Notes under the pieces: generated by a model | Seen by the model: the letters and a program-made list of their open reading frames with translations, nothing else | The model's database searches: none | Told to the model about the DNA's origin: nothing | In this document: piece after piece, positions 433 through 36,690 of the stretch | How the letters are laid out: every line of letters begins with the position of its first letter | Position numbering within the stretch: position 1 is the stretch's first letter | From: a virus | Virus record (IMG/VR): IMGVR_UViG_3300044640_001110 | Span: 1-37,611 of that record | Direction: 5' to 3' (one strand) | DNA: 37,611 nt | Made by a program: the position numbers and the translations under genes

Positions 433-2979
433 TCACTCCTTTCCCATCTGGGCTATCAGGTCCAGCAGCACACCCTGTAGCTTCTGCTTATTCTGCAGTC
501 GCTCATAGATGCGGTGCTCTACCTCGGTTGCTTCTATATGAACTACGTTCGACACATGTCTCTTACCGATGCGTTCGACGCGGCCATTCGCTTGAACATA
601 CTGTTCGTTACTGGTTATAGGTCCGTACCATACAACGGTTGACGCTGCTGTCAAGGTCAATCCATGCGCCATTGTTGCAGGATGTGCGATAAGTATGCGC
701 GGGTCACGCGCGTTCTGAAAGTTGTGGAAGATGTCGTTGCGCTTGGATGACGACACCTCACCGTTGACGACGGCCACGGTCCAGTGCTTGGACAGCTCAC
801 GCTCCAGCATGCGCAGCGTGCCGGTCAGCGGGACGAACAGGATGACCTTCTCCCCTGCCTCCTCGATGACCTCCTTGACCGCGTTGATGCGTGGCGCGCA
901 GTCCAGCTCCAGTCTCTCGCCGTGCTCGCCGTAGGCCACGCCCAGTGCGATCTGAATGAGCTTCTGCGCCTTGACCGCCTCGTTGACCGCCGTGATCGTG
1001 CCGCCCGCAACCTCGGTGACCAGCTGCTTGACCATCTGCTTGTAGTGCTTGGTCTGCTCTGCGGTCATCTCCACCTTGCGGGTCTGGATGACGGTGTCCG
1101 GCAGGTCCAGACAGTCCTCCCGGGTGAAGCGGATGGATGGCTGGAGCACGTGCTTCACAATATCCACGCTGTCCGGGCGGGGCACAAACTTCCACTGGCC
1201 GATCTTGGTCATGACCTGCTCTCGGAAACCTGTGTAGCTCTTGGACATGTGCGGGCTGTTGACCAGCTTGGCCAGTGCCCATGCGTCCGTCGGCTCGTTG
1301 GGGGTGGGGGTGCCGGTCATCAGCCACAGGTTCAGGTCGGGCTGCACCTGCAGCCAGCGGTAGAACTGTTTGAACCGCCGGGTCGACGGGTTCCTGTAGA
1401 CCGCTGCCTCGTCGATGATGACGAGGTCGAACTTGTCCAGCGCCTCCTTGGCGATGATCGGGAAGCCATCGTGGTTGATGATGTAGAAGTCCGCCTCGGT
1501 GTTCAGCATCTTGATGCGCCGCTTGGCATCGCCATAGAGGGTGACCGACTTACGGTGGTAGAACTCCTTGAACACGGCGTCGCCCCACACACGTTCCAGC
1601 GTGGACAGCGGCGACAGGATCAGCACCTTCTTGATGACGCCAGCATTCATGAGGAAGTCGGCCGCCCACAAGGCGCTGACCGTCTTGCCTGTGTTGCCCG
1701 TGGCGAAGATGCACCCGTTGCGCCGCAAGATCAGGTACGTGCTCGGCACCATGAAGCAGTACTTGAAGCCGTCCGTGGATGGGACGCACTCCATAGAACG
1801 CAGGCGTCGGCCACCCGTGGCCCCTAGAATGCCTACGCTGCCGCGCTTGGTGGTACTCACGCCCACCACGTACTCGATCGCGCTGCGTTCCTTCCTCTCG
1901 TAGGTCTGCAGCCGCGCGGTGTAGCCGCACGCAGCGAAGGCGTACTGGACGAAGTCCGCGCTCTCCTTGGTAGAGGTGAAGAACTCCACCCGCGGCTTGT
2001 TCTCCCGCACAGTCCCGTCCCAGTGCGGCACTTCATCGGCGATGACCCGCAGCTGGTGTAGCGTAGCCTGCCAGAATTGTGGCCCGAACACCTTGGTTCT
2101 GAGCGGCGGCATGAAGGACAACTTGTGAAACCCTTCGGGGGCACACTCCCTGTAGCTGTACGGGATGTGGGCAGCATCCAGCAAGTCGCGCAGCCTGTCC
2201 TTCTTGCGCTGCTTTTTGACGCGGACATAGCAAAGGTTGCCGCCTTCCGGGATATACCCATCAGCGATCGCTGCCACCATCACACGCAACTGTGCGTCGG
2301 TCAGCGACAGCCCGACCCCGCCCGGCACGGCGAATGTCGTAGGGATGGCAGCGTCCGAGAACCCGACCCGGTCTGCGGACTTCTGCACCCGGTCGCCGCC
2401 AACCCAAGCATCATGGCGGTGCAGGAGCTCCACGGCCGTCGTAGTTTCGACCTTGGCCGCATTCGTCTTGGACTGCAGCAGCACCCTGTGCTCTGGCGAC
2501 AGCATCTGATCGATACCATAGCGGGTCTTCAGCCTGACCATGGTGTCGCATGGCAGCTTTACGAATTGCGGCTCGGCAACAAAGTCAATCCGCTTGGTGT
2601 CTGGCCAGTACTGCGCCACCGCCCCACCTTCGTAGTCGGCAATACGCTGCCACCCTGTCGGAGACAGGTACTCCGTATCCGCGTCCACGCAGCCAATCGA
2701 GTTCAGCACAAGGCAGCGCTTGTGCAGAGTAAGGAAGTCGGCCGTGGATTTCTGGTGGTCGTAGGGTGTGAACTGCCCGGGCCAGTCGTACTGGTAGCCG
2801 ATGGGCGACGGCGGGTTGAACCCCAGCTCCTTGAGGCGCTGCATCTCCGGCACACGGTGCGGGATCACGACGATATTAGGGTCAGACGGCAGTTGCCGCG
2901 ACTTGGGTATGCACTCTAGGACCCTGTTGGGGTCATTCAGTTTGAGGGCTACGGCCCTCGCGGACTCGACGACAAGCAT
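433..2979 (-). CDS. SNF2-family DEAD/H helicase interrupted by an intein
   Basis: The 848-residue precursor includes a 333-residue intein (residues 97-429), so the mature helicase would have about 515 residues. The extein has SNF2/superfamily 2 helicase motifs. The Walker A site is SIG/TGKT, split exactly by the intein. It also has a DEAA box at about 523-526, TGTP (motif III) at about 555-558 and QANGRVERIGK (motif VI) at about 796-806. It likely uses ATP to translocate on or remodel DNA in replication or recombination. The start at 2979 lies 47 bp inside the end of the VRR-NUC gene and has an AGGG-type site upstream. SNF2-like helicases commonly sit beside VRR-NUC nucleases in phage replication modules. 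Activity must depend on intein removal, because the P-loop is otherwise broken. Confidence 0.93.
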   Translation of the reverse strand: MLVVESARAVALKLNDPNRVLECIPKSRQLPSDPNIVVIPHRVPEMQRLKELGFNPPSPIGYQYDWPGQFTPYDHQKSTADFLTLHKRCLVLNSIGCVDADTEYLSPTGWQRIADYEGGAVAQYWPDTKRIDFVAEPQFVKLPCDTMVRLKTRYGIDQMLSPEHRVLLQSKTNAAKVETTTAVELLHRHDAWVGGDRVQKSADRVGFSDAAIPTTFAVPGGVGLSLTDAQLRVMVAAIADGYIPEGGNLCYVRVKKQRKKDRLRDLLDAAHIPYSYRECAPEGFHKLSFMPPLRTKVFGPQFWQATLHQLRVIADEVPHWDGTVRENKPRVEFFTSTKESADFVQYAFAACGYTARLQTYERKERSAIEYVVGVSTTKRGSVGILGATGGRRLRSMECVPSTDGFKYCFMVPSTYLILRRNGCIFATGNTGKTVSALWAADFLMNAGVIKKVLILSPLSTLERVWGDAVFKEFYHRKSVTLYGDAKRRIKMLNTEADFYIINHDGFPIIAKEALDKFDLVIIDEAAVYRNPSTRRFKQFYRWLQVQPDLNLWLMTGTPTPNEPTDAWALAKLVNSPHMSKSYTGFREQVMTKIGQWKFVPRPDSVDIVKHVLQPSIRFTREDCLDLPDTVIQTRKVEMTAEQTKHYKQMVKQLVTEVAGGTITAVNEAVKAQKLIQIALGVAYGEHGERLELDCAPRINAVKEVIEEAGEKVILFVPLTGTLRMLERELSKHWTVAVVNGEVSSSKRNDIFHNFQNARDPRILIAHPATMAHGLTLTAASTVVWYGPITSNEQYVQANGRVERIGKRHVSNVVHIEATEVEHRIYERLQNKQKLQGVLLDLIAQMGKE
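1693..2691 (-). mobile_element. Intein with LAGLIDADG-type endonuclease domain, inserted in the helicase Walker A motif
   Basis: In-frame protein insertion of 333 residues. It starts with Cys (CVDADTEYLSPTGWQ, the Hint N-terminal block), has SPEHRVLL as block B, and ends in RRNGCIFATGN followed by Thr as the +1 residue. Between the splicing blocks lies a degenerate DOD-type endonuclease: AAIADGYI (first acidic motif, intein residues 140-147), a basic KKQRKKDRL segment, then VIADEVPHWDGT (second acidic motif, 216-227). The residue before the terminal Asn is Gly instead of the usual His. As I recall, this occurs in a subset of phage inteins with a similar RRNG..F.TGN ending. Joining the exteins restores an SIGTGKT P-loop, which fixes the boundaries. 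Confidence 0.9.
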
Positions 2980-3285: not shown

Positions 3286-3957
3286 TCAAGATGCGAACTC
3301 GCAGAAACCTTTACACGGGCAGTACTTGCACAGCCCGCTCGGCTTGGCCGGCCAGTTGCCTGACTCCAGCGACTTCTCCACACGGTTGATCCGGGTAAGC
3401 AGCTTGGTCCACATCCCGTCGGCATGCTCCCGCTTGTACGTCTCCCGGTCGGTCGCGTTCTCCTTCGTCCATACAAACATGGACGTGACAGCGGTGACCT
3501 CCGGGTTGAAGGCGAAGGTTGCAAGAGCAAACATCTCCAGCTGGTCGAAGTCGGGGCGGCGCTTGCCGGTCTTCCAGTCCACCACGATGGCCTTGGCATC
3601 CGGCCGGATGATGAGCACGTCCAGCTTGAACCGCAGCCATGCGTCCTCGTCGAACCAGCCGGTGGGCTGGAGGTCGCTGGTCAGGGTGTACTCCTGCTCG
3701 ATCGTGAGGGTAGCCCCACCCTTGGCAACGTGCGACGCGAGCACATCACACAGCGGCTGCAGTGCGACTGTCTCTGCAGGCAATGGGGCGGTGCCCTTGA
3801 GGGCATCCTCCAGCTGCTTGTGCACCCGCTCACCGTAGACCGTGGCTTCGCCGACGCTGTCCTTGACCTCCTTGGTGATGCGCTGGTGGTAGTACCGCTT
3901 GGGGCAGTTCTCGTACATCTTGAGGGCGGTGTAGGAGTGGGCAAGTTTGGTGGTCAT
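3286..3957 (-). CDS. RecB/Cas4-like PD-(D/E)XK exonuclease with Cys cluster
   Basis: The protein has 223 residues from ATG 3957. A longer open frame exists, but this start has GGAG upstream and is coupled to the preceding stop (TGATG). It begins LAHSYTALKMYENCPKRYY, the typical opening of RecB-type nuclease domains. GERVH (42-46) supplies a catalytic His, FKLDVL supplies Asp113 and VVDWKTGK supplies Asp127/Lys129. The C-terminus carries CKYCPCKGFC (Cys210, 213, 215, 219), which with Cys18 could bind a 4Fe-4S cluster as in Cas4/AddB. It probably degrades or resects DNA ends in phage recombination. The gene follows the polymerase, separated from it only by a duplicated mini-cassette. Confidence 0.9.
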   Translation of the reverse strand: MTTKLAHSYTALKMYENCPKRYYHQRITKEVKDSVGEATVYGERVHKQLEDALKGTAPLPAETVALQPLCDVLASHVAKGGATLTIEQEYTLTSDLQPTGWFDEDAWLRFKLDVLIIRPDAKAIVVDWKTGKRRPDFDQLEMFALATFAFNPEVTAVTSMFVWTKENATDRETYKREHADGMWTKLLTRINRVEKSLESGNWPAKPSGLCKYCPCKGFCEFAS

Positions 3958-4023
3958 CACGTGTCTCCATAGGTGTAAGCCGTGCCTGCCTCGCAGGCCA
4001 CGGGCAGGTCGGGTGCCCAAGTC
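3950..4023. repeat. Direct repeat copy 1 (74 bp), polymerase 3'-end duplication
   Basis: The 74 bp at 3950-4023 match 4110-4183 with a single mismatch (position 4014 versus 4174) at an offset of 160 bp. This copy sits just before the nuclease gene and supplies its ribosome site. Confidence 0.95.
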
Positions 4024-4025
4024 AT
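3957..4025 (-). CDS. 22-residue duplicated tail of DNA polymerase (mini-ORF)
   Basis: The ORF runs from ATG 4025 to a TGA at 3957-3959. Its product (MTWAPDLPVACEAGTAYTYGDT in two parts: MTWAPDLPVA then CEAGTAYTYGDT) repeats the last 21 residues of the polymerase. It overlaps the upstream mini-gene (ATGA) and the downstream nuclease start (TGATG). It is most likely a by-product of the 160-bp cassette duplication. Its TATGGAGACACG end carries the GGAG ribosome site for the nuclease, so it may matter as a translation leader rather than as a peptide. Whether the peptide is made or stable cannot be told. Confidence 0.55.
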   Translation of the reverse strand: MTWAPDLPVACEAGTAYTYGDT

Positions 4026-4117
4026 GGCTTGCCCTTTGCCGGTCTGCAGTTAATCGGATACGGACACCTTCCAGCCGCCGCATTCCAGCCGCAGACGCAG
4101 ATTTTCTTTGTGGTCAT
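4022..4117 (-). CDS. Cys-rich 31-residue mini-protein in a duplicated cassette
   Basis: The ORF runs from ATG 4117 (TGATG overlap with the polymerase stop) to TGA at 4022-4024. The product begins MTTKKICVCGW and continues NAAAGRCPYPINC, ending in a basic RPAKGKP. The four cysteines (CxC, then C and C) could bind one zinc ion. Its ribosome site (GGAG) lies inside the last polymerase codons. The start context is the same as that of the downstream nuclease (ACACGTGATGACCAC), because both derive from the same duplicated sequence. The family is unrecognised. A small nucleic-acid-binding or protein-binding knuckle is a guess from composition only. Confidence 0.6.
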   Translation of the reverse strand: MTTKKICVCGWNAAAGRCPYPINCRPAKGKP

Positions 4118-4183
4118 CACGTGTCTCCATAGGTGTAAGCCGTGCCTGCCTCGCAGGCCACGGGCAGGTCGGGCGCCCAAGTC
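4110..4183. repeat. Direct repeat copy 2 (74 bp), original polymerase 3' end
   Basis: This is the partner of 3950-4023. It encodes the natural C-terminus of the DNA polymerase, so it is taken as the original copy. The segment 4024-4109 between the repeats is the part unique to the inserted cassette. Confidence 0.95.
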
Positions 4184-6828
4184 GGGGCGGTGGACATGAT
4201 GGCCACGATGTCCTTCTCCGCCTGCTCGGCCTGATCCTCTGGCACGATGCAGACGTTCTCGTCGTGGACTTGGAAGGCGACGTGATACCCGGCGTCCCTG
4301 ATCGCCAGCATCTGCTCGGCCACGACAATGCGGGCCAGCGCCTGAGTGCAGTTGTGCACTACGAAAGGTCCCGAAGAACCTCGGACCACGAAGCGAGAGT
4401 TGGGTCCGGCGTTGCGGAGGTCATAGACAGGTTCCGCTGCCACCGATAGAACAACGTCGACTTCGGCACGCCCGTCAGTCTGTGTGCTCTGGTAAGGTCC
4501 ACGGGTAGAGCCCCGCGCCTGTTCCCAGCCTGCACGGTGTAGGATGTCCAGCGACAGTTCCCGGGTGTGTAGTCCCCGTTGTTGTCCTTCCGGTCCAGTG
4601 TCAGACCCGACTGGTAGGTGGGGCCCATGTCCCCCCAGAACGCCGCGAAGGAGGCATCCCACTCCGGGCATACTCTGATCCCGCGTGCTCCATAGTTGCG
4701 CCACGCTTGGTGTGAGGGTAGCCGGCACCGGTCCCGCATCGAGCGCCATACCCAGTAGGCCGGGTGATTGGCCATGCCGTGAGTCTTGTTCGCCGCCGCC
4801 ATCATGCAGCCACACGAGGAACTCCCGCCACGCTGTGCCCACTTTTCCACACCACTGGCTACGCGCGTCACCTCCGTCCCGCATATGCACCGGAATACCC
4901 ACAGCGAACGGCGACCGTTCGTGCCCTGATACCGTACTCCCGTCAGGTAACCAAAAGTCTGACCTGTATAGTCCTTCGCACGATGATGCACGGCGCCACC
5001 CTTTCTCGGTTAGGACCTCATGGTCCGGGGTCATGCGGACCCCATCGAGTTTGGTAGTAGACTGTTCGCCTTGACTAATCAACCCGTCATGCTGCACCCA
5101 TTGCACGCCGTCCCAAAGCCGGTCATCAGTCAGCACGTCCACAATCGGGACCCATCCCCGCTGGGTAAGTACTTGCGTGTCGCCAGCCAAACAGTTCTCC
5201 GCCACCATCGCGCCATAGATGCGGCTCTGGCCGGGGATCGTGCCGCTGTCCGCGTCCTTCGGGTCGCCGGCCAGCCGAGCCTTCATGGCTCTGTCAAACA
5301 TGCGCCTGTCTTGGATGTAGGTGAACTGCCGGGTGGCGGCCGTGAGCCCGTGGTACTGCAGCCGCATGCCGTTGGGCAGGAGGATGCCATCGGCGTCATA
5401 GGTCAGGATGTTACCGATCCGCCCCCTGCGCCCAGCCGCCATGCTGGACAGGGCGTAGCCACACTCACCCCACAGCTTCACGATCTGGTGGTAGCCTGTA
5501 CGGTACGTGCGCACCAGACGGTCGACGTCCTCCTCGGGGATGTCCACAGGTGGCTTGCCGCGCTTCAGGGTCAGCTGAAACTTCTCTGCCGACATGCCGT
5601 AGCCCAGCCCAAGGATGGCGGACTTGCCGACGTGGCGCTCCAGCTTGTCGGCCTTGGTCACCTTACGGCCATAGAAGACCGTGGCGAACTCGGAGTACAC
5701 GTCCCGCCCCTCGCGGAACCATTGCACAAGGTCGCTCTGCCCGGCGAGGTAGGCCACCATGCGCGCCTCGATCTGGCTGCTGTCACAGCTGATGATCTTG
5801 TGCCCCTCGGGGGCCCGAAGGGCTTGGCGCAGCGCACCACCACGGGGCAGGTTCTGGAGGTTCATCTTGTCGCCACCAGAGAAGCGGCCAGTGTGCGCGC
5901 CATAGTAGTTGAGCATGATGGGCAGCCGGCCACGGCCAGCCACTCCGATCAGGGAGGAGGTGCGCGTCTCCTCCAGCGTGGACTTGAGCCCAAGCCGTGC
6001 GGCCACCAGTGTCTGGACCACGGGGTTGTGGTGATCCTGCAGCGCGAGGAAGTCGAGGTCTGTCTTGGCGAAGGCGAAGGCTTCCTTGCCAGTGGTGCCG
6101 CTGATCTTGGTTGGTGGCTCTACCCCGCAGCGGCGCAGCAGCTTGGCGAACTTGTCGTTGGACATGAGGATGTCCTTGCCCTTGCCTCCAAGGGTGTCGA
6201 GCAGGGCCTGCTTCTCTGCCTGCACCACTACAAGGTGTGCCTCCAGCTTGTCCACGTCCAGCTCCACCGTCGGCTCGGTGTACATCCGGAGCGTGCTGTC
6301 GATGATCCGGAGCTCAGATACCGGGAACCCTTTGCGCAGCTTCTTGAACAGGGCGTAGGTCAGGTCCACGTCGTTGGCGCAGTACCTCATGTAGGCCGCA
6401 AGTTCTGCAGAGCCGAAGTCCCTGCGCCGTTTGCCGATCGCGAGGATGACCTCCTCGCCCTTCTGGCCCAACTCATAGTGCTGGGCCAATGCCTTGAGGC
6501 TACCACCCACAGTGGACTGGTGCTTGGGTCGTGCCATGGATAGCGTGTCGAGCCAGAGCTTGGGCTTGATACCGAAGTGCCACGACAGGATGGCGCCGTC
6601 GAACAGGGTGTTGTGGCAGAGGATCGCCTTGTCGCTGTAGTCGAGCGACTTGAGGAACTTGCCCGGGTTGTCCCCGGTGTAGGTATCCACTGGCCCGTCG
6701 TTGACCTTGACGCCGACGCCGATGACCTCGAACAGAGGTGATCGTACGTAACTTTCTGTCGTGATCTTAGACAGGGAGTAATCCCTGTCGTAGTATGTCT
6801 CAAAGTCGATAGTAACTATGTCCATCAT
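4117..6828 (-). CDS. Family A DNA polymerase (PolA-type) with 3'-5' exonuclease, interrupted by an intein
   Basis: The precursor has 903 residues. Removing the 281-residue intein (546-826) leaves a 622-residue polymerase, the usual size for phage family A enzymes. The DEDD exonuclease domain is at the N-terminus: DFETYY (Asp8, Glu10), CHNTLFDGAIL (Asp77) and ANDVDLTYALF (Asp153, Asp155). Polymerase motif A is CDSSQIEAR (Asp349), the O-helix is RHVGKSAILGLGYG (about 398-411) and motif C is VHDE (854-857). The intein lies in the conserved VAEN/CTQALAR segment before motif C. The enzyme is presumably the phage replicase with proofreading. The gene overlaps the upstream MazZ-like gene (GAATGATG) and feeds by TGATG coupling into the mini-cassette and nuclease. 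Its catalytic core is incomplete until splicing occurs. Confidence 0.96.
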   Translation of the reverse strand: MMDIVTIDFETYYDRDYSLSKITTESYVRSPLFEVIGVGVKVNDGPVDTYTGDNPGKFLKSLDYSDKAILCHNTLFDGAILSWHFGIKPKLWLDTLSMARPKHQSTVGGSLKALAQHYELGQKGEEVILAIGKRRRDFGSAELAAYMRYCANDVDLTYALFKKLRKGFPVSELRIIDSTLRMYTEPTVELDVDKLEAHLVVVQAEKQALLDTLGGKGKDILMSNDKFAKLLRRCGVEPPTKISGTTGKEAFAFAKTDLDFLALQDHHNPVVQTLVAARLGLKSTLEETRTSSLIGVAGRGRLPIMLNYYGAHTGRFSGGDKMNLQNLPRGGALRQALRAPEGHKIISCDSSQIEARMVAYLAGQSDLVQWFREGRDVYSEFATVFYGRKVTKADKLERHVGKSAILGLGYGMSAEKFQLTLKRGKPPVDIPEEDVDRLVRTYRTGYHQIVKLWGECGYALSSMAAGRRGRIGNILTYDADGILLPNGMRLQYHGLTAATRQFTYIQDRRMFDRAMKARLAGDPKDADSGTIPGQSRIYGAMVAENCLAGDTQVLTQRGWVPIVDVLTDDRLWDGVQWVQHDGLISQGEQSTTKLDGVRMTPDHEVLTEKGWRRASSCEGLYRSDFWLPDGSTVSGHERSPFAVGIPVHMRDGGDARSQWCGKVGTAWREFLVWLHDGGGEQDSRHGQSPGLLGMALDAGPVPATLTPSVAQLWSTRDQSMPGVGCLLRGVLGGHGPHLPVGSDTGPEGQQRGLHTRELSLDILHRAGWEQARGSTRGPYQSTQTDGRAEVDVVLSVAAEPVYDLRNAGPNSRFVVRGSSGPFVVHNCTQALARIVVAEQMLAIRDAGYHVAFQVHDENVCIVPEDQAEQAEKDIVAIMSTAPTWAPDLPVACEAGTAYTYGDT
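4351..5193 (-). mobile_element. Intein in the DNA polymerase, with no in-frame endonuclease
   Basis: This 281-residue insertion begins CLAGDTQVLTQRGWVPI (block A). It has MTPDHEVLTEKGWRRA as block B (54-69), PVYDLRNAGPNSRFVVRG as block F and PFVVHN as block G, with Cys as the +1 residue. Those blocks make a complete class 1 Hint splicing domain with the normal HN ending. The 170 or so residues between block B and block F are Gly/Ser/Arg-rich and show no LAGLIDADG or HNH motif in this frame. The same DNA encodes an HNH endonuclease in the +1 frame (4359-4991). The boundaries are set by restoration of the VAENCTQALAR polymerase segment. Confidence 0.93.
4359..4991 (-). CDS. HNH homing endonuclease nested out of frame inside the polymerase intein
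   Basis: A 210-residue protein in the +1 frame relative to the intein, entirely inside it. It starts at GTG 4991 directly after intein block B and has its own ribosome site (AAAGGGTGG, about 6 nt upstream). The N-terminal zinc-binding module has FRCICGTEV and SSSCGC. Then come YWVWRSMRDRC and YGARGIRVCPEW, and the HNH core LTLDRKDNNGDYTPGNCRW. The C-terminus has a helix-turn-helix (LTGVPKSTLFYRW), similar to the end of the free-standing HNH protein at 12897-13436. The gene stops 8 bp before the intein ends, so its last codons also encode blocks F and G. It probably cuts intein-less polymerase genes and so spreads the intein. Confidence 0.9.
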   Translation of the reverse strand: MHHRAKDYTGQTFGYLTGVRYQGTNGRRSLWVFRCICGTEVTRVASGVEKWAQRGGSSSCGCMMAAANKTHGMANHPAYWVWRSMRDRCRLPSHQAWRNYGARGIRVCPEWDASFAAFWGDMGPTYQSGLTLDRKDNNGDYTPGNCRWTSYTVQAGNRRGALPVDLTRAHRLTGVPKSTLFYRWQRNLSMTSATPDPTLASWSEVLRDLS

Positions 6829-7965: not shown

Positions 7966-8094
7966 TCAATTACACGCTCCAATGATGTATTCGATCCAGC
8001 CGTAGCCCAGAGCCTCGTAGAGGACTACTCCGAGGATAGCGACAGACCACAGTGCGACGGGCAGCCAGAGCCAGAACCAAGGGGTATCCTTCAT
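7966..8094 (-). CDS. Small membrane protein (42 aa)
   Basis: The ORF runs from ATG 8094 (ATGA overlap with the preceding gene) to TGA at 7966-7968, one base before the next start. The product begins MKDTPWFWLWLPVALWSVAI and continues LGVVLYEALGYGWIEYI, giving a single hydrophobic segment of about 20 residues. The exact overlap on both sides supports real translation. Its function is unknown; a small membrane peptide acting on the host is possible. Confidence 0.65.
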   Translation of the reverse strand: MKDTPWFWLWLPVALWSVAILGVVLYEALGYGWIEYIIGACN

Positions 8095-8339
8095 GGCTTG
8101 GCCCCCGTGAACGGGGTGGGGATGGCGCGGATGGCGTCAATCTCGGCTTGTGCTGGGTGTTCCAATCCAAATTCGGCCATATCTTCCACCACATCTGACC
8201 AGACGGCCGTTATGGCATCAATAGCCGCCTCCCGCATCGCATCCACCGCAGCCGCCAACCCATCCCCCGCCTTCACCACCGCCTCAAGGGCGGCAATGCG
8301 GGCCGCTGTACCTACGGGGTGAGTTTCAAAGTCGCTCAT
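8091..8339 (-). CDS. Small acidic helical hypothetical protein (82 aa)
   Basis: The start at 8339 follows a GGGAGG ribosome site in the leader GGGAGGAATGAT, the same leader used by the next upstream gene. The sequence is Ala-rich and mostly helical (AARIAALEAVVKAGDGLAAA, then VDAMREAAIDAI). It contains a VEDMAEFGLEHP segment and ends TPFTGAKP. I see no known domain. It lies in a run of small early genes. Confidence 0.75.
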   Translation of the reverse strand: MSDFETHPVGTAARIAALEAVVKAGDGLAAAVDAMREAAIDAITAVWSDVVEDMAEFGLEHPAQAEIDAIRAIPTPFTGAKP

Positions 8340-8340
8340 A

Positions 8341-8544
8341 TCATTCCTCCCTCTTCTGCCACTCAATCCACCCGGGTTGCCCATAGACAGCATACCACTC
8401 AGCCGAAGGGGCTGTGCTGTCCACCTCGTGGTAGTCGTCTGCGTCACCCTCCTCGACGAGGGCAACAGCCTCCTCAATGGTATCCGCCTCGACCTCATAG
8501 ATGTAGGTCACGGTCTCTTCTGCTTTGATCTGGAACTTAGGCAT
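8341..8544 (-). CDS. Small hypothetical protein (67 aa), paralogue of the 58-aa protein at 11877-12053
   Basis: The start at 8544 has GGGAGG upstream, and the coding end is 1 bp from the next gene's start. The product begins MPKFQIKAEETVTYIYEVEA and contains ADTIEEAVALVEEG. This resembles the MPKYEIQLTFYRTVEAADID opening of the protein at 11877-12053, so the two look like distant paralogues. The strand-then-helix pattern (EVEADTIEEA) is seen in short phage and plasmid proteins of unknown function. Confidence 0.75.
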   Translation of the reverse strand: MPKFQIKAEETVTYIYEVEADTIEEAVALVEEGDADDYHEVDSTAPSAEWYAVYGQPGWIEWQKREE

Positions 8545-8545
8545 A

Positions 8546-9133
8546 TCATTCCTCCCATTCATCAACGTCAGCCTTCTCGGGGTAGCAGGTGAACCACTCG
8601 CGGCTCGGCTTGGTCTGGTCAGGCGACCGCCACAGCTGAAACTTGGCACACTCACCCCTCGCATACATCGCCCGGATCGCGCCGGAGATGGCGTTGTAGT
8701 CAGTCAGCCCGTCGCCCCGGGTCTTGCCGGGGAACAGGCGTTCGAACAGGGTGCCGACAGTCCACACACCGCCGCCAGTCAGGGTGGCACGCACCCGGTC
8801 CGCCGTTGTCGGTTCTGCAACCTGCAAGGCATCCGTCAGGTCGAACTGCTCGAAGGGCATGGCGTATTGGACAGCTCTGGAGAGGGGCGCCGGAGCCGCA
8901 CTGGTGGGGCGTGCCGCATGGACGGCCAGCCATGGCGTCCGGTCTGCCTTGTCAGGGAAGCGGTTGGGCACCAGACGGGCAGTGAGCTCGGCCCCCAGCG
9001 CCACGACGCCGGCCTTGGATACGCTGACCGGTATGTAGCAGTTGTCCCCGTTGTCCAGACGGACAGCGAAGGCTGCCCCGGAGGGCAGCACGTTGGCCAC
9101 GATGATCGTGGTCTCGATAGGTACGAGTTGCAT
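8546..9133 (-). CDS. Hypothetical protein with OB-fold-like N-terminus (195 aa)
   Basis: ATG 9133 has AGAGGA upstream. Residues 1-60 form a run of predicted strands (TTIIVANVLPSG, FAVRLDNGDNCYIPVSV, LTARLVPNRF) resembling a cold-shock or OB-type nucleic-acid-binding barrel. A low-complexity Ala/Pro linker follows. The C-terminal part (about 105-180) contains VWTVGTLFERLFPG and ISGAIRAMYARGECAKFQLW, which looks like a winged helix. A single-stranded nucleic-acid-binding or regulatory role is inferred from fold appearance only. Confidence 0.75.
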   Translation of the reverse strand: MQLVPIETTIIVANVLPSGAAFAVRLDNGDNCYIPVSVSKAGVVALGAELTARLVPNRFPDKADRTPWLAVHAARPTSAAPAPLSRAVQYAMPFEQFDLTDALQVAEPTTADRVRATLTGGGVWTVGTLFERLFPGKTRGDGLTDYNAISGAIRAMYARGECAKFQLWRSPDQTKPSREWFTCYPEKADVDEWEE

Positions 9134-14563: not shown

Positions 14564-14815
14564 CTATATGTGGGATGCCCATGCACTCTCGACTATGTCG
14601 AAGTTGAACACGAGCGAGTGGAGGGGGGCTGCCACCACCGGGATCATGGTGTCCAGTCTGGTGTCTGATGTCGGGCCGTTCACCAGTTGGCCGAGTCCCT
14701 GAGCGGTGCCCCATGCCCGGATACACCGGACGCTGGTCATGTGTAGATGGCCGTCGACGATGGTGTACGTCCTGCACACCAACACGAAACCGTTTGTAAG
14801 TACCACAATCTTCAT
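14564..14815 (-). CDS. Hypothetical protein (83 aa)
   Basis: ATG 14815 has AGGGGAG upstream and overlaps the repeat-protein stop by 4 bp (ATGA). The sequence starts MKIVVLTNGFVLVCRTYTI, a compact beta-rich opening, and ends in a hydrophobic SLVFNFDIVESAW segment. No family is recognised. Confidence 0.7.
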   Translation of the reverse strand: MKIVVLTNGFVLVCRTYTIVDGHLHMTSVRCIRAWGTAQGLGQLVNGPTSDTRLDTMIPVVAAPLHSLVFNFDIVESAWASHI

Positions 14816-15105
14816 AGTGCTCTCCCCTTGCCGTTGCCGTAGCCGTTGCCGTAGCCGTTGCCGTAGCCGTCGCCGTAGCCGTTGCCGTAGCCGTCGCCGT
14901 TGCCGTAGCCGTTGCCGTCGCCGTAGCCGTAGCCGTAGCCGTAGCCGTTGCCGTAGCCGTTGCCGTTGCCGCCGCCGTTGCCGCCGCCGTTGCCGTTGCC
15001 GTAGCCGTAGCCGTTGCCGTTGCCGTAGCCGTAGCCGTTGCCGTTGCCGTTGTGGCCAGTGACGACCCTACTCGGTGTCAGCCTGACCCAGTGAAGTGTT
15101 GTCAT
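14812..15105 (-). CDS. Gly-Asn/Tyr/Asp dipeptide-repeat protein (97 aa)
   Basis: The start at ATG 15105 follows AGGAA; a GTG/ATG 7 codons upstream is possible. The first 18 residues (MTTLHWVRLTPSRVVTGH) are ordinary. Residues 19-92 are then 37 tandem X-Gly dipeptides with X mainly Asn or Tyr, sometimes Asp or Gly. A short basic tail (KGRAL) ends the protein. The codons are almost always GGC with AAC, TAC or GAC, so units differ mainly at one base. The protein is likely disordered or forms a glycine-rich, aromatic-containing assembly. The ATGA overlap with the next gene and its own ribosome site support expression. Function unknown. Confidence 0.75.
   Translation of the reverse strand: MTTLHWVRLTPSRVVTGHNGNGNGYGYGNGNGYGYGNGNGGGNGGGNGNGYGNGYGYGYGYGDGNGYGNGDGYGNGYGDGYGNGYGNGYGNGKGRAL
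14830..15051. repeat. Imperfect hexanucleotide tandem array (CCGTTG/CCGTAG/CCGTCG)
   Basis: About 37 copies of a 6-bp unit, read on the plus strand as ccgttg, ccgtag or ccgtcg with a few ccgccg, lie inside the dipeptide-repeat gene. All units keep the frame. The regular unit suggests growth by replication slippage followed by point changes. Confidence 0.95.
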
Positions 15106-35808: not shown

Positions 35809-36102
35809 ATGACTGATGATGTACGATTCGACCGTATCGAAAAGAGCCTAGACAAGTTCAGCGACAAGCTGGACGAGTTGACCAAGGTCGTGACCGATCT
35901 TGCTAGGGTCGAGGAGCGCATGGTCACGCTGTTCAAGCGCATGGACCAATACGACCGGAGGCATGACTTGTTAGACGGTCGTCTAACAACCGTGGAGGAT
36001 AACACCACCCAGCGCGGGGTGGTGGATCGTATTCTGGACAAGGCGCTTTGGTTGGTGTTCGGTGCCGGTTTGGCCTTTGCAGTCAAGGTATTCGGGGGAT
36101 GA
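35809..36102 (+). CDS. Coiled-coil protein with C-terminal membrane segment, XhlA-like (97 aa)
   Basis: The start at 35809 has GAGGA upstream. Residues 5-70 form heptad-like helices (RFDRIEKSLDKFSDKLDELT; RRHDLLDGRLTTVEDNTTQR). A C-terminal hydrophobic segment follows (ALWLVFGAGLAFAVKVF). This resembles XhlA/hemolysin-type phage lysis-cassette proteins. It overlaps the endolysin gene (ATGA), so a holin-associated function is likely. Confidence 0.75.
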   Translation: MTDDVRFDRIEKSLDKFSDKLDELTKVVTDLARVEERMVTLFKRMDQYDRRHDLLDGRLTTVEDNTTQRGVVDRILDKALWLVFGAGLAFAVKVFGG

Positions 36103-36509
36103 GACAGTGGACAGATCGCAGCCTGACCAACCTGCACGGGGTACACTCTGACCTCCGCCGGGTCATGGACCGGGCGCTGCAGGAGGCACCGTTTGCCTTT
36201 GTCGTGACCGAAGGTCTGCGCACGCTCGCCCGGCAGAGAGAGCTTGTCAGGATCGGTGCGTCCAAGACGCTGGAGTCCCGGCACCTCACCGGCCACGCTG
36301 TCGATCTGGTGCCCTATGTGGACATCGACAAGGATGGCAGGGTCGAGGTCGAGGAGATGTACGCGTGGCCGCTGTACCACAAACTCGCGCCGGCCATCAA
36401 GGCTGCTGCAGCCAACGAGAAGGTCGCCCTCGTATGGGGCGGAGACTGGCGCAGCTTCAAGGACGGCCCGCATTGGGAACTGGATCGCCGGGTCTATCCG
36501 GCAAAATGA
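36099..36509 (+). CDS. M15-family endolysin (L-Ala-D-Glu peptidase type) with EF-hand-like loop
   Basis: The protein has 136 residues from ATG 36099; the run GGGGG precedes the start. SRHLTGHAVD (60-69) is the SxHxxGxAxD zinc motif of peptidase M15, with His62 and Asp69 as ligands and His125 in GPHWEL as the third. It would cut the peptide stem of peptidoglycan. Between the ligands lies DIDKDGRVEVEE (75-86), which fits the canonical EF-hand loop (Asp1, Asp3, Asp5, Gly6, hydrophobic 8, Glu12). The related T5 endolysin is known to be Ca-regulated through such a loop, so the same is likely here. No signal peptide is seen, so release needs the holin. Confidence 0.92.
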   Translation: MRQWTDRSLTNLHGVHSDLRRVMDRALQEAPFAFVVTEGLRTLARQRELVRIGASKTLESRHLTGHAVDLVPYVDIDKDGRVEVEEMYAWPLYHKLAPAIKAAAANEKVALVWGGDWRSFKDGPHWELDRRVYPAK

Positions 36510-36519
36510 GGAGAAGATC

Positions 36520-36690
36520 ATGACTGGTGAACAAATCGCAGGCGTCGTTCGCGCTATCGTTGCTGCTCTTGGTGGGTACTTTGTCGGCCAAGGTGTGACT
36601 GATGCCGAGACGGTCGCTACCGTCGGCGGCGCCGCCGCCACGCTGGCCGCTGCTCTCTGGTCGATCTACGCCAAGCGCAAGGCCGAGTGA
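36520..36690 (+). CDS. Holin (56 aa)
   Basis: ATG 36520 has GAGGAG upstream. Two hydrophobic segments (IAGVVRAIVAALGGYFVG and VATVGGAAATLAAALWSIYA) are joined by a short acidic turn (QGVTDAET). A basic tail (AKRKAE) ends the protein. This is a class II-like holin, similar to the small holins I recall from Pam3-type phages. It would open the inner membrane for the endolysin. It shares a base with the Rz gene start (TGATG). Confidence 0.85.
   Translation: MTGEQIAGVVRAIVAALGGYFVGQGVTDAETVATVGGAAATLAAALWSIYAKRKAE

Follow-up and report, generated by a model that had tools for sequence, protein, structure and literature searches.

A 160-bp cassette at the polymerase–nuclease junction of a phage operon: probable young insertion of a very small gene with a duplicated ribosome site

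The window, by which we mean the whole stretch of DNA analysed here, corresponds to a single IMG/VR virus record (37,611 bases) from a virus of bacteria. Its minus strand carries, in this order, a gene for a family A DNA polymerase, a 31-aa ORF, a 22-aa ORF and a gene for a PD-(D/E)XK nuclease. The junction comprises the following features.

4117–6828, minus strand: gene for the family A DNA polymerase, containing an in-frame intein (Pfam DNA_pol_A, E 4e-29; PHROG DNA polymerase, E 4e-89)
4110–4183, minus strand: repeat copy 1, the genuine 3' end of the polymerase gene, including GGAG, stop and start (TATGGAGACACGTGATGACCAC)
4024–4109, minus strand: 86-bp unique segment, the body of the putatively captured mini-gene, ending ...GGGCAAGCCAT
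4022–4117, minus strand: 31-aa Cys4 mini-gene, MTTKKICVCGWNAAAGRCPYPINCRPAKGKP, with full-length homologues in contigs L167, L169 and L171
3957–4025, minus strand: 22-aa ORF as read from the sequence (MTWAPDLPVACEAGTAYTYGDT), the last 21 polymerase residues behind an ATG made by the join
3950–4023, minus strand: repeat copy 2, the second polymerase 3' end, whose GGAG and TGATG immediately precede the nuclease gene; absent from relatives L004 and L006
3286–3957, minus strand: PD-(D/E)XK nuclease gene, 223 aa, the next core gene of the operon (Pfam PDDEXK_1, E 6e-18)

A preliminary description of this DNA had reported a 74-bp direct repeat with one mismatch and a 160-bp offset around an 86-bp unique segment, and this arrangement was recovered at the coordinates above (1 mismatch in 74). 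Its reading of the coding content also held: the first copy encodes the true polymerase C-terminus (...TAYTYGDT), the second re-encodes the last 21 residues as the 22-aa ORF, and GGAG sits within the Tyr-Gly-Asp-Thr codons in both copies, with TGATG joins before the 31-aa ORF and the nuclease gene. The polymerase stop, TGA, thus overlaps the ATG of the mini-gene (TGATG), the 31-aa and 22-aa ORFs overlap by ATGA, and the 22-aa ORF and nuclease gene again by TGATG, an arrangement from which we infer translational coupling. The mini-gene is made up of the 86-bp segment and the first bases of the start region, and it ends in its own ...AKGKP, the duplicated polymerase end being a separate frame that could possibly act as a translational bridge. 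The 74-bp pair was the only direct repeat of at least 30 nt in the whole window besides one short-unit array at about 14.8–15.1 kb, and TATGGAGACACGTGATGAC, at up to 3 mismatches, occurred in the window only at two sites, one in each repeat copy (0.02 expected). The array, at 14789–15098, consists of 6/12-nt repeats (TTGCCG, about 37 units).

We compared this junction with related phages, as the preliminary description had proposed. Scans of viral contigs for related loci covered the best 80 of 177 relatives for the polymerase tail and the best 80 of 188 for the nuclease, and the polymerase–nuclease junction was readable in 153 of 162 loci, the remaining nine lacking one of the two genes. In L007 the automatically assigned nuclease start was misplaced and the join was read by eye. 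Among the loci kept, 15 records, counting the window, had a nuclease at least 73 % identical to that of the window and were designated the close clade. Four of these carry the cassette (the window, L002, L003 and L005), six have polymerase and nuclease directly overlapped without an insert (L004, L006, L008, L010, L012 and L013), and five hold other small genes at the junction (L007 and L011 with the same insert, L009, L014 and L015), amounting to four distinct inserts. Over the first 10,344 positions of the window, L002, L003 and L005 show 6, 9 and 17 differences from it, none of them in 3950–4183, and are therefore distinct haplotypes with an identical cassette. The nearest cassette-free relatives, L004 and L006, show about 94 % nucleotide identity to the window over neighbouring stretches, L008, L010, L012 and L013 being more distant, and the junction of L004 and L006 (...GGAGATACGTGATGACCACCAAACTCGCC) equals that of the window minus exactly 160 bp. 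The cassette had also been called a recent event. The single mismatch in 74 agrees with this, but the dating is loose, and the event could go back as far as the split from L004 and L006.

Inteins were a further point of difference among these genomes. The polymerase intein is common to the window and L004, whilst in L006, L007, L009, L010 and L013 no match of at least 300 nt covering it was found. Inside this intein (about 4390–5190), in another frame of the same strand, lies a 210-aa ORF (4359–4991, minus strand), across which the intein frame stays open. The ORF contains a TPGNCRW motif, by which it presumably resembles an HNH-type homing endonuclease; a Pfam search gave no match for it, and it is possibly an out-of-frame endonuclease gene within the polymerase intein. 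The helicase gene (433–2979, minus strand) contains an intein-like stretch at about 1693–2692, which is missing in L004 and L006, where the sequence continues 1692|2693.

Beyond the close clade, extra sequence between polymerase and nuclease was common. The 153 readable loci formed 104 distinct junction groups, of which 29 had a gap below 20, with no intervening gene, and 75 a gap of 25 or more, and the polymerase–nuclease junction is thus an insertion hotspot. The 74-nt duplication was confined to the window lineage, one of the 75 groups with extra sequence, and no diverged, older version of it was seen among them. In distant relatives the gap is often filled by a conserved 69–88-aa gene (YVRFST..DDT...LKHDILRRM; e.g. 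L070, L104, L138 and L137), and since many of them carry it, some occupancy of the junction is ancestral. The inserts of the close clade are unrelated to this gene. Two of the four other close-clade inserts rebuild the pattern GGAGA..CGT-(G/A)ATGAC before the nuclease, namely those of L007/L011 (CATGGAGACACGTAATGACTAAA) and L009 (TTGGAGATTCGTGATGACAAC). In L015 a first insert ends GAGGACGCGTGATGGC and is followed by a second; neither this second insert nor that of L014 has a copied junction before the nuclease, and other SD-like bases are kept there.

Similar insertions were sought at other sites by scanning the window and the loci read for repeats of at least 15 nt with a coupled start in both copies and an ORF of at least 25 aa after each start. 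Among 80 repeats the scan yielded four further cases, against none in three shuffled controls. Because these ORFs had to follow in copied register, the scan does not list the 160-bp cassette, so the four cases are additional to it; a stricter scan also passed over the cassette, owing to the intervening 22-aa ORF. L009 has a 41-nt duplication (2338–2378 and +431) around a 143-aa gene ending ATLAEIEGEK, which echoes the ATLAEVEGEKT of the upstream gene, and L012 a 23-nt duplication (2409–2431 and +299) around a 100-aa gene; in both cases the inserted gene lies between two copies of the upstream gene's end together with its start region. L016 has a 16-nt duplication. The fourth case lies in the window itself and comprises the following features.

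8542–8556 and 8337–8351, minus strand: 15-nt repeat GGGAGGAATGATATG (SD, stop and start) flanking a 67-aa gene
8091–8544, minus strand: second insertion, consisting of the 67-aa gene (8341–8544) and an 82-aa gene ending ...TGAKP (8091–8339), absent from L006

This second insertion lies between a 195-aa gene and a 42-aa gene, which are joined directly in L006. The further flanked genes in the window, L009, L012 and L016 make the 160-bp cassette one of several. We also considered AAGCCATGA as a general junction convention and rejected it: six of its seven occurrences in the donor loci were the mini-gene's own flanks, and it occurred twice in the close clade and three times in distant relatives, where 4.7 were expected.

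Homologues of the mini-gene were sought with back-translated DNA patterns and confirmed over whole records. Beyond the window lineage, three contigs (L167, L169 and L171) carry a full-length homologue encoding MTAKKICICGWNAAAGKCPYPINCKPSKAKP. The window mini-gene is identical to that of L167 at 88 of 96 nt, and the 86-bp segment lies in a 97-nt match to L171 and L167 at 92 % and to L169 at 91 %. With its start bases the segment therefore matches a gene of another phage group and is not new DNA. In all three contigs the mini-gene follows a related upstream gene that ends in ...EAKP or ...GAKP, and a perfect 15-nt repeat, GGCCAAGCCATGACC, which contains the start codon, lies on either side of it. 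Although not closely related to the window, these phages share with it part of a lysis-type peptidase region (36,098–36,683; 79–88 %). In addition, 145 nt of the window's 82-aa gene (8091–8339) are 97 % identical to the L171 gene immediately upstream of the mini-gene, indicating that small genes are exchanged between the two groups from a common pool. In L167 the gene upstream of the mini-gene (4312–4836) contains a Lar-type restriction alleviation domain (Pfam E 2.6e-10), which places the mini-gene there among accessory, possibly counter-defence genes. Other pattern matches were judged to be chance: those in L161 and L162 lie inside the frame of a 445-aa ORF, and neither those in L163–L166, L168, L170, L172 and L173–L177 nor any of the ten in bacterial genome contigs (L178–L187) were homologues. 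A single bacterial genome scan thus gave no bacterial homologue of the mini-gene. The junction DNA had no nucleotide match in INPHARED phages, the 31-aa peptide gave chance matches only and no homologue in that collection, and PHROGs held no family for the peptide of either the window or the L167 group.

An open frame of this size is unremarkable by itself (30 open codons following an ATG have a probability of about 37 %), and the reality of the 31-aa gene consequently rests on its homologues. The frame is intact in both phage groups with all four Cys kept, and in both the mini-gene sits behind an SD-like site with an overlapping stop/start. The window and L167 genes differ by six nonsynonymous and two synonymous changes, which gives no dN/dS signal. 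Each of the six replacements is mild (in a simulation of random change, P 0.03 for the summed BLOSUM loss and P 0.011 for all scores being at least 0), which hints weakly at selection on the protein. The Cys spacing of the peptide is C-x-C-x8-C-x5-C. CCCH (C3H1) zinc fingers have the spacing C-x8-C-x5-C-x3-H, and the peptide resembles those of proteins such as tristetraprolin in its C-x8-C-x5-C portion and locally in sequence (GRCPYPINC/GRCPYGSRC); unlike them, it lacks the final His in the window and L167 alike and has an extra preceding Cys. CCCH-like sequence matches were weak (E 0.009 and 0.03; E 0.04 and 0.45 with a two-sequence profile), Pfam gave only a sub-threshold CCCH match at 11.4 against 30 bits, and the AlphaFold2 model was poor (pLDDT 66.7, pTM 0.23). 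That the peptide is a metal-binding mini-protein is a guess.

The joins between the mini-gene and its surroundings could be read directly against the L167 group. At the left join the window mini-gene starts ATGACCACAAAG where L167 has ATGACCGC. Its first eight bases, ATGACCAC, are those of the nuclease start, and its third codon is ACA, against GCA in L167. As these bases and codon 3 agree with the nuclease start and not with L167, the left crossover most likely fell in the first bases. At the right join the trailing ...GGGCAAGCCATGAC of the mini-gene, matching GGCCAAGCCATGAC of the other group, turns into the TTGGGC of the polymerase, and the last part of the 15-nt flank of the L167 group (GCAAGCCATGAC) is retained before TTGGGC. 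The polymerase sequence here is GCCCCGAC, which has GAC or GCCnnGAC in common with the end of the mini-gene, a microhomology so short that it could be chance. The one base that differs between the copies is A in copy 2 and G in copy 1; both states occur among relatives, and the difference may be a new mutation or the mark of a second parent.

These observations are probably best explained by a young insertion of a gene-pool mini-gene at start-codon microhomology, in which the duplicated polymerase end restores the Shine-Dalgarno site of the nuclease gene. A 31-aa accessory mini-gene from the phage gene pool would have entered the polymerase–nuclease stop/start overlap by recombination, with the left join inside the start region ATGACC(AC) common to nuclease and mini-gene. 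At the right join the mini-gene's trailing ...GCCATGAC would have met the polymerase sequence 74 bp before the 3' end of that gene, a position that accounts for the last 74 bp being copied behind the mini-gene. The order of recombination and its machinery are conjectural, and the simplest single step would be an exchange, out of register by 74 bp, between an empty genome and one already carrying the mini-gene immediately in front of the nuclease. The proposed intermediate, with the mini-gene directly before the nuclease and no duplication, was not found among the loci read. In the resulting arrangement the polymerase would keep its full end, the mini-gene would use the GGAG and TGATG embedded in the polymerase gene, and the nuclease would receive the second copy. 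The 22-codon in-frame ORF, joined by ATGA and TGATG, would span the stretch between and spare ribosomes an untranslated gap, if both small ORFs are indeed translated; an in-frame ORF here has a one-in-three chance and is no evidence by itself. Modelled pairing with 16S rRNA at the nuclease start was -6.4 in the window and in an empty relative but -4.4 if the mini-gene end directly precedes the nuclease, so that the duplication is predicted to return the nuclease's original site. Selection for this restored site may be why the duplicated form survived. The preliminary description had seen in the cassette a way to add a gene to a tightly packed operon. Insertion into such an operon is borne out, but the data point to survivors of recombination rather than to a dedicated mechanism.

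Several other explanations were weighed against this reading. Direct repeats often trouble short-read assembly, but an assembly artefact can be very nearly dismissed here, as three further IMG/VR contigs from other metagenomes, which may or may not be independent samples, carry the cassette base for base and differ from the window only elsewhere; moreover, repeat collapse tends to remove such structures and cannot invent 86 bp homologous to a phage gene. Alternatively, the cassette may be an old structure that was present in a common ancestor and was lost from L004 and L006 by recombination between the 74-bp copies. Such recombination would yield exactly the observed empty site, and the differing base would fit, A in copy 2 being the state of L007, L008, L009, L011, L013, L014 and L015, and G in copy 1 that of L004/L006 and L010/L012. 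We nevertheless regard this as decidedly unlikely: many losses would be needed to explain six empty close-clade records and five with different inserts, the copies differ at 1 of 74 positions whereas the flanks differ by about 6 % from L004/L006, and a third-position transition recurs easily.

The duplication and the 31-aa frame could also be by-products of recombination without a selected function, in which case the cassette will be lost. The missing dN/dS signal, the not improbable length of the open frame and the lack of a family match at curated cut-offs all suit such a neutral passenger, which has a real chance of being correct but which we doubt, given that both phage groups have this frame uninterrupted, with all four Cys and nothing but mild replacements, each time behind an SD-like site and overlapping stop/start, and that the cassette is kept in four records although direct repeats favour its loss. 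A dedicated mobile element, with the mini-gene moving into start codons by its own ATGACC-containing repeats, appears very improbable. Start-codon repeats of 15 nt do flank the mini-gene in L167, L169 and L171, and ATGAC occurs at both ends in the window, but the 160 bp hold two ORFs of 31 and 22 aa and no recombinase, no inverted repeat of at least 10 nt was present in the tested stretches (3900–4250 in the window), only two genomic settings are known, the flanks differ in length (15 versus 74 nt), and outside the mini-gene itself the flanking motif shows no enrichment. A broader and still unlikely idea is that mini-genes bounded by copies of stop/start junctions recombine into other junctions, each time leaving a duplicated ribosome site. 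If true, translation units of 31 codons, here a roaming CCCH-like Cys4 mini-protein, would be exchanged as independent mobile parts.

Insertion with a duplicated upstream gene end is a known kind of event, as the precedent of two mycobacteriophages demonstrates. Island3 (Cluster I) has an extra gene behind gene 67, the 3' end of which (60 bp, 18 residues) is duplicated, and the near-identical Brujita lacks that gene and has a single copy of the repeat; the authors proposed general recombination, either of one copy with the other or involving an unknown partner (Pope et al. 2011, PMC3029335). The window is comparable in that its near relatives L004 and L006 have no extra gene and a single repeat copy, and in that its repeat comes from the 3' end of the polymerase gene, which lies upstream, and the start of the next gene. 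In Island3 the C-terminus of the inserted gene is encoded by the duplicate, as it is in the 143-aa gene of L009. In the window the duplicate is instead a separate 22-codon frame with a ribosome site and overlapping start for the next gene. New with respect to Island3 are this copied ribosome site and start, the bridging frame, the relatives of the inserted gene identified elsewhere, and a site that is a recurrent insertion point. Among the open-access papers searched, none was found on a 'duplicated ribosome binding site' in phage, although one may be in print elsewhere.

Other phage systems offer analogies, not memberships. The Start-Associated Sequences of Cluster K mycobacteriophages, like the repeats described here, occupy ribosome sites immediately ahead of the start codons of non-structural genes (PMC3203893), but they follow one 13-bp consensus genome-wide, whereas the repeat in the window duplicates a gene end and, at up to 3 mismatches, occurs just twice. 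In the T4-type PeSL, a promoter plus stem-loop, signals around small accessory genes serve as recombination points for shuffling (as described in PMC4503421). Conserved expression signals as recombination points are the likeness; the signal in the window is a translational stop/start, and no PeSL-type promoter plus stem-loop was found there. Phage morons likewise are extra genes between two genes adjoining in relatives and typically bring their own promoter and terminator (PMC3029335). A search of 3900–4250 for sigma-70-type promoters and intrinsic terminators, the two types covered, found neither pattern, and the insert in the window, unlike morons, relies on the operon that hosts it.

Empty site, filled site and a homologue of the inserted gene are all available for this locus, which captures one step by which dense phage operons gain very small genes. 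It offers a concrete route by which an insertion can leave the upstream protein intact and still provide a ribosome site for the gene downstream. At 94 % identity, the carriers and the empty relatives allow a direct test of how the cassette affects nuclease translation. Annotators should take note, since the 31-aa gene and the 22-aa pseudo-copy of the polymerase C-terminus would usually be missed or misread.
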